Shown in pieces: positions 30,808-33,562 of a stretch of 62,750 nucleotides of DNA. A program made the position numbers and the translations under genes. The notes beneath the pieces were generated by a model. That model made no database searches. It was not told the DNA's origin and saw only the letters and a program-made list of their open reading frames with translations. The number at the start of each line of letters is the position of its first letter. Positions within the stretch are counted from its first letter, which is position 1. Origin of the DNA: Nitrospirota bacterium (GTDB lineage: Bacteria; Nitrospirota; Thermodesulfovibrionia; UBA6902); the NCBI GenBank assembly GCA_016214845.1, contig JACRMS010000038.1:1-62750 (forward strand), in the 5' to 3' direction.

Positions 30808-30840
30808 TAGGGCACTTTTGTGCTGTGGCACTATTTTTTT
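30806..30840 (+). terminator. Hairpin plus T run after the EamA gene; AGTGC-rich
   Basis: TAGGGCACTTTTGTGCTGTG GCACTA followed by seven Ts. The stem is imperfect. Its complement (ATAGTGCCACAGCACAAAAG then TGC) loosely resembles the AGTGC repeats at 32671 and 33499. Confidence 0.5.
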
Positions 30841-30952
30841 CTTTATTGCTTTTTTCACAGACTTTTTCAGTATTAAGGAAAGCTCAAGCAGTTCGAGGGC
30901 GATTTCAATGTTCTTGCCGTTAGGTTTCAAAGTCCGTTTTTTCTCCTGTGCT

Positions 30953-31711
30953 TTATATACTATTGCACTGTTTCTGGAACACAAAAATGTGCTCGTGCAT
31001 TATGAGCAGAAAGTTGTACAGCTTCGACTTCTTCACCCAGAAGCCCGTTGCCCTGCAGTTGTGCTGGACTTTGATGATGTCCTCCCGCAAAACAAATCCC
31101 GCCTTTAAAAACCGCTCCATGGCTTTGAATGCGAGGGGAATGTAGAACTTGTTTCTTCTCGTATCGCCTATAAGGATGGCGCAGAACTTACCGGGTTTTA
31201 AAACCCTGAAACATTCACGAGCTACTTTTTCTATTTCATCACAGAAGGAATCAATGGAATGAATGTTCGACAGGTCTTCGTTAATCTTACCTTCCGAATA
31301 TTTGATAATGTCCGCATACGGCGGATGAGTCAATACCAAATCAATTGATCCCTCTTCGATGACTTCAAGATTCCTTGCATCTCCAATAAAACAATCTTGA
31401 GGTTGCGAGTAGAGATAATCAAAATTCAATCTCTCCTGAGTAATCTTTATTGAGTTAGGGTTTATGTCAATGCCAATACCTCTTCTTCCTGTCAGCTTGC
31501 ATTCAATCAATGTCGTTCCTCCGCCGACCATAGGGGCAAGGACCGCATTGCCTTCATTTAAATAGCGAAGGACCAAGTTGCGGACGACCTGCGGAGACCA
31601 GTTACCCCTGTAGTCGGATCTGTGGGTTGCCCAGTTGCCTCTTTTCGGAAAAGACCAAACTGTGGTGCATTCAAGGTCAAAGCTTTCAGGTTGAAGCTTC
31701 TTTACACCCAC
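30953..31711 (-). CDS. DNA methyltransferase (N4-cytosine/N6-adenine class)
   Basis: 252 residues. Motif order: VLAPMVGGGTTLIE near residue 57 and the catalytic LTHPPYAD (a variant of S/D-PPY) near 131, separated by GRRGIGIDINPNSI, the SAM-pocket acidic strand. This is the alpha/beta-type order of site-specific DNA methylases. The GTG start follows a GGCGG-rich site. It is divergent from a putative nuclease across a 195-base region full of GATC, so it looks like the modification half of a restriction-modification pair. Base and site specificity are unknown. Confidence 0.87.
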   Translation of the reverse strand: MGVKKLQPESFDLECTTVWSFPKRGNWATHRSDYRGNWSPQVVRNLVLRYLNEGNAVLAPMVGGGTTLIECKLTGRRGIGIDINPNSIKITQERLNFDYLYSQPQDCFIGDARNLEVIEEGSIDLVLTHPPYADIIKYSEGKINEDLSNIHSIDSFCDEIEKVARECFRVLKPGKFCAILIGDTRRNKFYIPLAFKAMERFLKAGFVLREDIIKVQHNCRATGFWVKKSKLYNFLLIMHEHIFVFQKQCNSI

Positions 31712-31735
31712 CGCCGCCTGCTTAACATTCTAATC

Positions 31736-31834
31736 AGGCTCTCAGGACGATCCTCGATCGTATGAAGTAATGTAAGACATTATTTGCAATACACGAAGAC
31801 CGTCTGAGAGCCCTATTTTGATCGATCATTGATC
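31736..31834. promoter_or_regulatory. Shared control region: 12-bp inverted repeat and five GATC sites
   Basis: AGGCTCTCAGGACG (31736-31749) and CGTCTGAGAGCC (31801-31812) form an inverted repeat with one extra base. GATC occurs at 31749, 31756, 31820, 31824 and 31831, five times in 86 bases, including TCGATCG and TGATCGATCA palindromes. It lies between the divergent methyltransferase and nuclease-like genes. Confidence 0.6.
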
Positions 31835-31906
31835 GAATCGGGTGCAAATGTCAACAGACTATAAGTAACAATAAAAAACTTGAACGCTTTTGCTAAAATA
31901 CCAAGC

Positions 31907-32641
31907 ATGAAACAACATGAAGCAGTTATAAAGGTGATGCAAGATAATGGGGGATACGCAACTCTTGGCTTTTTGAATCAGGAAGTTCTAAGAGTAAAGG
32001 ATTGCGAGTGGAGAACTAAAACCCCTTTTGCGAGCATCAGAAGAATTGTGCAGGACGACAGGTTTTTCTTCAGAATCAGACCGGGGTTGTGGGCTTTAAA
32101 ATCTTTCAGGAATAAACTACCCGACAATATACTGCCGACAAAGGGGATGCCCAAAACAAAACAGGAAGAATTTAATCATACATACTATCAGGGATTGCTT
32201 GTGGAAGTCGGGAATTTAAAAAAGTTTAAAACCCATGTCCCAAATCAGGACAAGAATAAAATCTATTTGGGCCAAAGGATTGGCCAGATAACAACAGTCA
32301 GCGAACTTTATAAATTCACATATGACAGCATCCTTCAGAAAGCACGAACAGTTGATGTTAGCTGGTTTAATTTCAGGAAAATGCCGCATATGTTTTTTGA
32401 GATTGAACATTCAACAGATATTCAAAACTCTCTACTGAAATTTTTAGAGCTTCAAGATTTTTATGTGCAATTTTACATTGTGGCGGATAAAGCAAGAGAA
32501 AAAGAATTCGAGACTAAATTGTCTTTAAATGCTTTCACGCCGATTCTAAAGAGGACCCGATTTATGAGTTATGTCCAGTTGTCTGAATTGCACACAAGAA
32601 CGTACGAGATTACAAGTTTAGAAAGCAGTCTCAATTTCTAA
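31907..32641 (+). CDS. Putative restriction endonuclease with N-terminal winged-helix domain
   Basis: 244 residues from ATG 31907 (an upstream TTG at 31880 is less likely). The first ~85 residues resemble a HARE-type winged helix (KQHEAVIKVMQDNGGYATLG, RFFFRIRPGLWALKS). The C-terminal part has MFFEIEHSTDIQNSLLKFLE, a pattern close to PD-(D/E)xK-type nuclease cores with ExE. It is divergent from a DNA methyltransferase, which supports a restriction role. Sequence-specificity unknown; a transcription regulator is the main alternative. Confidence 0.6.
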   Translation: MKQHEAVIKVMQDNGGYATLGFLNQEVLRVKDCEWRTKTPFASIRRIVQDDRFFFRIRPGLWALKSFRNKLPDNILPTKGMPKTKQEEFNHTYYQGLLVEVGNLKKFKTHVPNQDKNKIYLGQRIGQITTVSELYKFTYDSILQKARTVDVSWFNFRKMPHMFFEIEHSTDIQNSLLKFLELQDFYVQFYIVADKAREKEFETKLSLNAFTPILKRTRFMSYVQLSELHTRTYEITSLESSLNF

Positions 32642-32670
32642 CGCATCCGCCCCCAAATCTGTCGGCAACG

Positions 32671-32699
32671 ATAGTGCAAAAGTACAGAAGTGCAATAGT
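32671..32699. repeat. AGTGC repeat, left of the toxin-antitoxin pair
   Basis: ATAGTGCAAAAGTACAGAAG then TGCAATAGT. Related to the tandem 16-bp units at 33499-33562 on the other side of the toxin-antitoxin genes. Confidence 0.65.
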
Positions 32700-32771
32700 C
32701 GGAAGCACAAAAAAGGGGTTCTGAAGTTTAAAGGACAGGGAAGATACGTGGTTGTAAGGTAAAGGTATTTA

Positions 32772-33194
32772 TTACGCTTTCAAAATCTTCAACAGTTTTG
32801 CAGTTGTAAAAACCTCAATTCCTGAATGTTTAAAATCCCTGTCATTGCTCCAGACAGGAACTTTCAGCTTCATTGCAAGCGCAAGCAATTCTATATCGTC
32901 TTCATCCCTGCCTGACAATTTCCTGGACGCCTTTTGAATAAAATCTTCGTAAGAATGCTGAGGGTAAATTTTAATGGGAAGGAGTTTGAGCTGGGACTCA
33001 AGAATTTCTTCGCTGATTCCATACTGCTCCGCGATAACGCCAAGGTATTCTCTGACTTCGTCAATATTAAACTGTGTTGTTACGAAATCAATATCTTCTT
33101 TCAGAAATACGCGGAGCGCTGCCTTGCCGGCAACTGCGGAGAGGATGACGTTAGCGTCTGCGGCGAGTTTTTTTAAAGGCGTTGAAATCTGCAA
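32772..33194 (-). CDS. PIN-domain toxin (VapC-like ribonuclease)
   Basis: 140 residues. Acidic residues of the PIN active site are in place: LAADANVILSA, FNIDEVREYL, DEDDIELLALA and WSNDRDF. TTG start with GAGGGG seven bases upstream. It overlaps the end of the antitoxin gene by 44 bases, an arrangement that ensures antitoxin is made first. It would cleave RNA when freed from the antitoxin. Confidence 0.87.
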   Translation of the reverse strand: MQISTPLKKLAADANVILSAVAGKAALRVFLKEDIDFVTTQFNIDEVREYLGVIAEQYGISEEILESQLKLLPIKIYPQHSYEDFIQKASRKLSGRDEDDIELLALAMKLKVPVWSNDRDFKHSGIEVFTTAKLLKILKA

Positions 33195-33417
33195 GTAGTT
33201 TCCCCTCTGTTATTCCCTTTTTCTCAAGTGAACGGCCTACGAATTCACCAAGACGGACCAGCAGCTCTTTTCTGAGTTCCAAAGGAAAGCTCTCCGGATG
33301 TTCGATTGGCAGATAAAGTCCTGCTACTTTGCCATGCCTTGTAACAAGAACAGGCTCGTCGTCCTTAAAATAACTTGTAGCTTTGTCCCTGAATTCTCTG
33401 ACTGTTGCCACCTTCAT
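33151..33417 (-). CDS. Antitoxin, Phd/YefM-like
   Basis: 88 residues starting MKVATVREFRDKATSYFKDD, then PVLVTRHGKVAGLYLP, the Phd/YefM DNA-binding fold. The basic tail KKTRRRR is unusual. A strong AGGAGG precedes ATG 33417. It neutralises the PIN toxin and probably represses the operon. Confidence 0.88.
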   Translation of the reverse strand: MKVATVREFRDKATSYFKDDEPVLVTRHGKVAGLYLPIEHPESFPLELRKELLVRLGEFVGRSLEKKGITEGKLLADFNAFKKTRRRR

Positions 33418-33498: not shown

Positions 33499-33562
33499 AG
33501 TGCAGAAGTGCAATAGTGCAGAAGTGCAATAGTGCAGAAGTGCAATAGTGCAAAAGTTCAAG
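33499..33562. repeat. Tandem 16-bp repeat AGTGCAGAAGTGCAAT, right of the toxin-antitoxin pair
   Basis: Three perfect units at 33499-33514, 33515-33530 and 33531-33546, then a decayed fourth (AGTGCAAAAGTTCAAG). Each unit is two 8-base halves, AGTGCAGA and AGTGCAAT. Confidence 0.9.

Follow-up and report, generated by a model that had tools for sequence, protein, structure and literature searches.

Precedents for the control of a restriction-modification (R-M) locus through methylation of a promoter site, or through binding of the DNA methyltransferase (MTase) to an operator, are described for CfrBI, AhdI, LlaDII and Ecl18kI in excerpts of PMC12707154 and PMC3874152. For LlaDII and AhdI, the passages of PMC12707154 on these systems report that methylation affects the MTase gene only. 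DpnI, as presented in an extract of PMC4117772, cuts Gm6ATC and has a winged helix that separately binds Gm6ATC. A survey excerpted from PMC11037411 found that 87% of more than 1,000 winged-helix endonucleases have no neighbouring MTase, which was taken as a sign of stand-alone, modification-dependent enzymes. In addition, fusions of a HARE-HTH domain with a restriction endonuclease (REase) domain were proposed to discriminate modified DNA in a section of PMC10853773, and such fusions are also listed in part of PMC12839542.

Here, we analysed a 62,750-bp stretch of DNA from a Nitrospirota bacterium (the window), in which an MTase gene and a gene coding for a nuclease-like protein diverge from a gap rich in GATC. 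Our literature search returned no report of this locus and none of an experimentally tested HARE-HTH nuclease.

A divergent gene pair and its GATC dyads

The divergent MTase/nuclease pair claimed in the preliminary description of this DNA was confirmed. The MTase ORF (30953-31711, minus strand) codes for a 252-aa protein that its profile matches assign to the N6/N4 DNA MTases and that bears the motif THPPY. The facing ORF (31907-32641, plus strand) codes for a 244-aa nuclease-like protein with an N-terminal winged helix and a PD-(D/E)XK-like C-terminal domain; the ORF listing begins it at an upstream TTG, 31880. In the same listing, the 195-bp gap is free of other ORFs of 60 aa or more and no controller-like (C-protein) ORF appears among those listed around it, and an Rfam scan of the window returned three tRNAs only.

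A motif scan of the window placed GATC at 31749, 31756, 31820, 31824 and 31831. The count of five in 86 bases given in the preliminary description is right, and 86/256 = 0.34 would be expected with equal base use; the window as a whole contains 234 GATC against 288 expected. Base shuffles of the 195-bp gap never reached five GATC in 86 bp (0/20,000). Furthermore, a count of GATC upstream of 72 loci, some of which are the same genome reached via two collections, gave five for the window, three for the next-highest locus and zero for 46 loci. Density alone is weak because five GATC in 86 bp turned up somewhere in 16 of 200 windows simulated at this length with a first-order Markov model, which makes it about a 1-in-12 event window-wide, and we rejected it as the main argument. 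Three GATC within 72 bp are common, with 229 such places genome-wide.

Four of the five GATC make up two 15-bp dyads of the form CGATC-N3-GATCG located 75 bp apart. The left dyad (31747-31761, ACGATC-CTC-GATCGT, with GATC at 31749 and 31756) is kept in all eight genomes compared, and the right dyad (31822-31836, TCGATC-ATT-GATCGA, with GATC at 31824 and 31831) in six of the eight; the fifth GATC, at 31820, stands beside the right dyad. The assembly of 3,445,234 bases contains CGATC-N3-GATCG three times, twice in the MTase/nuclease gap and once inside a coding ORF that we take to be lipoate-ligase-like (lipoate ligase, PIN, Phd, DGQHR and HATPase are presumptive names in this text). Unlike the density, the arrangement and conservation of the dyads are well beyond chance. 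The idea of a control region with an unusual GATC element was upheld in the form of two dyads that are the best-conserved stretches of the gap across the eight genomes. Another palindrome, TAATGT-AAG-ACATTA near 31767, was dropped as it is imperfect in G158 and absent from the other six genomes.

The dyads lie in a conserved control region (31712-31878) that is common to G158 and G233 and, less closely, to another five genomes. The similarity of G158 and G233 to the window stops at 31878, just short of the nuclease start; the end of the common region is 28 bp before the nuclease ATG. The inverted repeat said to lie between the two genes was recovered as two 14-nt arms, 86% complementary, at 31732-31745 and 31804-31817, on either side of the left dyad. 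This long-range repeat is recognizable by eye in the eight-genome alignment in G158, G233 and G116, and not in the other four. A consensus scan predicted a leftward MTase promoter (31825-31854, minus strand) composed of TTGACA (31854-31849), 18 nt and AATGAT (31830-31825), with 10 of 12 consensus bases; two promoter-like sites were returned in the region scanned, and shuffles give 0.9. AATGAT, which we take to be the -10 box, would lie inside the right dyad by this consensus match. TTGACA, presumably the -35 box, is exact in five of the eight genomes and differs by a single base in the remaining three, as seen by eye in the alignment.

Conservation of the dyads with the MTase gene

The eight carriers aligned (the window, G158, G233, G261, G343, G116, G315 and G245) come from several families of one phylum, and the genomes compared are drafts, probably metagenome bins. 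A DNA search of 37 genomes of the family found the MTase and control region, without the window nuclease, in G158 (same genus) and G233. The other carriers came from an MTase search of 395 genomes of the phylum, 32 of which have a match at E<=1e-20. The start-to-start spacing of the dyads is 75-77 bp in carriers, and their consensus is (A/T)CGATC-N3-GATCG(A/T). Mean pairwise column identity across the eight gaps was 92% for the dyad arms, 70% for the spacers and 58% for the rest of the gap. Since the eight gaps are related by descent, part of the conservation of the dyads reflects common ancestry, yet it still exceeds that of the rest of the same gaps.

The dyads are also largely confined to this gap. 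Fourteen of the 16 CGATC-N3-GATCG sites present genome-wide in the eight carriers lie in the MTase upstream gap, four sites in all were found in the seven non-carriers searched, and every strict dyad site in 164 loci (876 kb) is located in an MTase upstream gap. A looser dyad-pair pattern matched 79 of 395 genomes; among the matches listed, most are non-carriers, apparently matched by chance, and we do not use this pattern as evidence.

Both dyads were present in 6/6 genomes whose MTase is full length and at least 79% identical. The left dyad alone was found in the two genomes with a damaged MTase, G315, where it is cut short, and G245, where it bears an internal deletion. No dyads were found in G126 and G164, two DpnI genomes without a full MTase; in G126, an MTase tail of about 23 residues remains upstream of DpnI. 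G136 carries a window-type nuclease, an MTase in pieces and, at the homologous place, TTGATC-ATT-GATCAA, a variant changed on both arms with its symmetry kept. Judged from these genomes, the dyads follow the MTase and not its neighbour gene.

In the 265 bp upstream of the G269 MTase (61%), no dyad was found, and the genome of G269 has two scattered sites and no pair; therefore, a dyad operator would not be general to the MTase family. At L113 101-3162, the gene of this relative diverges from one coding for a 641-aa protein that contains two D12 MTase domains, and the two genes have no GATC dyads between them. Orphan ORFs of 470-540 aa with about 50% identity to the MTase were also observed in the taxonomic class (L161 2959-4383, L125-L133); that of L161, the one inspected, begins with an HTH-like part and carries one more domain behind the MTase.

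The MTase, the nuclease and the exchanged partners

The best families for the window MTase were PF01555 (2.5e-24) and PADLOC PDLC03376 (3.7e-83), and no MethyltransfD12, TIGR00571 or dam match was obtained at E<=1. By these profiles, the MTase is not of the Dam/D12 type. It aligns nearly end to end with catalytic relatives and has no HTH extension before the catalytic domain, the 252 aa being aligned from the N-terminus and the Pfam scan giving no HTH. Its structure model has a mean pLDDT of 71.3, with residues 1-35, 133-137 and 216-238 below 50. What we take to be motif I (like THPPY, a motif name that we presume to apply) reads LAPMVGGGTT, with Ala59 (codon 31535-31537) at the position of Asp in 12/12 other aligned rows. 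Because of this replacement, the window copy of the MTase may be impaired or failing.

Structure prediction had been proposed as a check for a PD-(D/E)xK core in the facing protein; the C-terminal domain of the nuclease model (pLDDT 90.4, from the homologue alignment) resembles such enzymes. VIA-align related the model to EcoT38I (Z 7.6, rmsd 3.9, 123 aligned), LmuA (Z 7.5, 3.8, 130), BstEII (Z 7.0, 3.7, 119) and BsaWI (Z 7.0, 4.0, 136), all below 8, folds missing from this listing not being counted as excluded; Foldseek with the same model returned no match at E<=0.001. The window nuclease has conserved D...(D/E)-x-(K/E) catalytic residues, as D150, E165 and E167 are invariant in 33/33 aligned homologues, in the form E-x-E and not E-x-K. 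The 33 rows are the window, 31 of the 56 genome-contig loci and one plasmid; L049 and L063, which have a stop within the match, and several others were left out.

Residues 1-77 of the nuclease match winged-helix structures, and HARE-HTH (PF05066) reached 19.3 bits (E 0.0015), below the cut-off of 25.9; we call the N-terminal domain no more than HARE-like. The window nuclease gave no PF06044/PF17726 match at E<=1, a PDB sequence search found no nuclease relative, and viral contigs and phages yielded no nuclease match. Matches to it occurred in 37 of the 395 phylum genomes (E<=0.001), roughly half being short or weak, and the family was seen at 56 loci in named genomes spread over many phyla. 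Among the 39 loci of L034-L086 having at least 1.5 kb on both sides, an MTase-like ORF was undetectable within that distance at 30, fragmentary at 4 and larger at 5; detection combined a single profile with six query proteins and a C5 motif, and so covered some MTase families rather than all. Since the nuclease is mostly solitary (30/39 loci), the no-MTase-neighbour logic of the survey excerpted from PMC11037411 can be applied to it as well, and by analogy it is probably modification-dependent (type IV/IIM-like). As the nuclease usually occurs without an MTase, the window genes probably do not form an R-M pair of the classical type. In three genomes, an ORF of 106-131 aa was noticed immediately ahead of the nuclease gene (L036 1160-1480, L034 3603-3998 and L078 3685-4011); the one at L036 is without a Pfam match and overlaps the nuclease start.

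Divergent from the MTase gene stands a HARE-like nuclease in the window; in G158, G233, G343 and G116, a DpnI homologue takes this position. In G261 and G315, a radical-SAM gene runs toward the gap, and in G245 the partner is an AccI-like REase with an N6-MTase. The partners of G158 and G233 match both DpnI domains (PF06044, 4.4e-66 and 3.4e-64; PF17726, 7.9e-30 and 6.2e-29, respectively), that of G158 matches PDB 4esj at 2e-67, and the homologues of G343 and G116 stand at 77% and 75% to that of G158. By eye, the methyl-cleft residues Leu129, Arg135, Trp138 and Gly140 of DpnI are kept in all four. The catalytic Glu, which we take to be E64 of DpnI, is Gln in the four partner homologues, hence their activity is not certain. 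Because DpnI cuts Gm6ATC and the cleft is kept, production of Gm6ATC by the MTase would be suicidal in these carriers if their DpnI is active. The pairing with DpnI argues that the MTase is not a Gm6ATC maker; m4C at GATC by a window-type MTase is possible. The switch by GATC methylation put forward in the preliminary description was not borne out, given that DpnI partners in four genomes keep the m6A-reading residues.

Past the nuclease stop, we found the relic of a DpnI-type gene 3' end (32644-32762, plus strand), common to G158, whose pieces (32644-32667 and about 32712-32762) are split by a short-repeat insert. It is followed by a presumably PIN-like/Phd-like gene pair (32772-33417, minus strand) that is syntenic with G158 and marks the same genomic place; the pair and the adjacent relic end are 90.6% identical to G158 over 844 bp. 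By this synteny, the loci of the window and of the congeneric G158 are at the same genomic place. Since the relic comes after the nuclease stop and the same relic is found in G158, the sequences indicate that a DpnI gene once stood at the window locus; the genome itself has no DpnI homologue at E<=1e-10. We infer that the HARE-like gene replaced DpnI, rather than being inserted after its loss.

Several features were observed around these loci. Short repeats of the AGTGCAATAGTGCARAAGTGCAATA type lie on both sides of the module and within the DpnI relic, which they split (30812-30990, 32670-32715, 33500-33560), and the last MTase codons run into one of them. Pieces of MTase and DpnI gene 3' ends turn up repeatedly in each other's vicinity, around other genes (L147, L151, L155, L110 1906-2226; L149 5943-6026; L159 16-126), and resemble scars of repeated replacement. 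Beside the MTase of G261 (L147 4767-8935) are a radical-SAM protein with an apparent B12-binding part, a 334-aa protein, a 112-aa DpnI_C protein and an ATPase that presumably is HATPase-like. G315 also has the radical-SAM gene (L150 1815-2914), in two frames, beside an ORF that we take to be DGQHR-like.

A rule that DpnI hosts are without Dam was tried and kept as a lead only, being mixed over the eight genomes with a DpnI homologue: D12 matches are lacking in G233, G343, G164 and G031, weak in G158 and G126 and moderate in G116, and G013 has a Dam-subfamily match above the cut-off despite its DpnI homologue. The genome of the window, without DpnI, also has a Dam-subfamily match above the cut-off; at L195 1477-3119 (G000:C19), a Dam-subfamily MTase (TIGR00571, 126 bits) precedes a PADLOC type II REase match of HNH look.

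A putative operator, its alternatives and its relatives

With moderate confidence, and from sequence comparison, we propose that the GATC cluster is a private two-site operator for feedback control of the MTase gene. A dimeric protein would bind each dyad. Occupancy of the right dyad would block the predicted MTase promoter, and joint occupancy of both dyads, about 7 helical turns apart, would tighten repression, thereby placing the MTase gene under feedback control. Because the dyads are private and the MTase is the sole gene common to all carriers, the MTase would itself be the likeliest binder, either by attaching to its half-sites or by modifying them, with a winged-helix protein encoded at the locus in second place. 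As no HTH is apparent in the MTase, its action as a repressor would need binding via the catalytic fold. The divergent nuclease, standing where G158 has DpnI, would be exchangeable and not kept in check by the MTase. What is unusual is that the MTase and its putative operator are stable under nuclease exchange, with DpnI among the partners.

A switch like that of CfrBI or LlaDII, in which the MTase would modify a GATC-type promoter site and methylation of the dyads would lower MTase and change nuclease transcription, seems to us somewhat unlikely. The genes are divergent with a candidate site inside the MTase promoter, as in CfrBI, AhdI and LlaDII in the relevant passages of PMC12707154, and the dyads and the MTase are kept and lost together. 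However, given the activity of DpnI outlined in the extract of PMC4117772, the four DpnI pairings exclude Gm6ATC unless the DpnI homologues concerned are inactive, the MTase is outside the Dam/D12 family, GATC as such requires no dyad, and the window MTase is without the Asp of motif I. The loss of this Asp also speaks against a classical type II R-M system, in which the HARE-like protein would cut an unmodified site protected by the MTase. Similar MTases, apparently full length, do adjoin the nuclease in unrelated phyla (L056, L074, L076 and L083), but for 30 of the 39 nuclease loci no MTase-like ORF was detected within 1.5 kb, for 4 only fragments were, and the same MTase pairs with DpnI, which requires no protecting MTase; we hold this explanation to be unlikely.

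Repression could instead come from the winged helix of the nuclease (DpnI_C or HARE-like), or from a small DpnI_C-type protein, binding the dyads. DpnI-type and HARE-like partners both have a winged helix, that of DpnI separately binds Gm6ATC in the extract of PMC4117772, and G261 keeps its DpnI_C protein about 4 kb away. Nevertheless, the DpnI winged helix requires methylated GATC, dyads persist where neither nuclease is the partner (G261, G315 and G245), and they are absent from G126 and G164, which have DpnI and no full MTase, making such a binder decidedly unlikely. Rather unlikely, too, is a methylation sensor, with a repressor sitting on unmethylated CGATC-N3-GATCG until a foreign GATC methylase (phage or plasmid Dam) lifts repression and a plug-in modification-dependent nuclease destroys the methylated DNA. 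If it were true, the HARE-like family would be a second, unrelated Gm6ATC-dependent family beside DpnI, and the locus an inducible, modular anti-methylation defence with swappable effectors. Finally, the dyads might be cassette-exchange sites, serving recombinase binding or crossover and explaining the partner changes, and not an operator. The common region does stop 28 bp before the nuclease ATG, and pieces of MTase and DpnI gene 3' ends are found repeatedly around the loci; yet these repeated fragments are gene ends and not dyads, the dyads are away from the junctions, the right one overlaps the promoter match, and no recombinase gene was noticed among the ORFs listed at the locus. We regard cassette exchange at the dyads as highly improbable.

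With the operator for feedback control of the MTase gene as the preferred reading, a GATC count would become a defined operator, with the MTase and control region staying while unrelated nucleases, DpnI included, change. The locus also makes directly testable the standing proposal that HARE-HTH nucleases read modified DNA; if the nuclease cuts only modified DNA, a widespread family gains a function.

Like CfrBI as excerpted from PMC12707154, the locus has a divergent MTase and nuclease and candidate sites in an inverted-repeat region overlapping the predicted MTase promoter. Unlike CfrBI, it has two longer dyads 75 bp apart and an inconstant partner nuclease, and GATC m6A by its MTase is argued against. 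With LlaDII and AhdI, in the passages of the same source, it would share a control that concerns the MTase gene alone, whereas it has no fixed cognate nuclease. The regulatory MTases of Ecl18kI and SsoII, in the excerpt of PMC3874152, likewise pair an operator in the divergent gap with a proposed repression of the MTase promoter, but the window MTase is without their N-terminal HTH extension. As for the nuclease, it resembles DpnI and the winged-helix m6A-dependent nucleases (extracts of PMC4117772 and PMC11037411) by combining a winged helix with a PD-(D/E)XK-like domain and by mostly stand-alone genes, and a DpnI homologue occupies the same divergent position in four genomes; it differs from DpnI by having the winged helix first and by showing no homology to it in the scans used. 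It shares with the HARE-HTH and REase fusions presented in portions of PMC10853773 and PMC12839542 the idea of a HARE-type winged helix fused to a REase domain; those fusions are near Dnd/BREX modules, whereas the window-type nuclease stands beside an MTase or alone.
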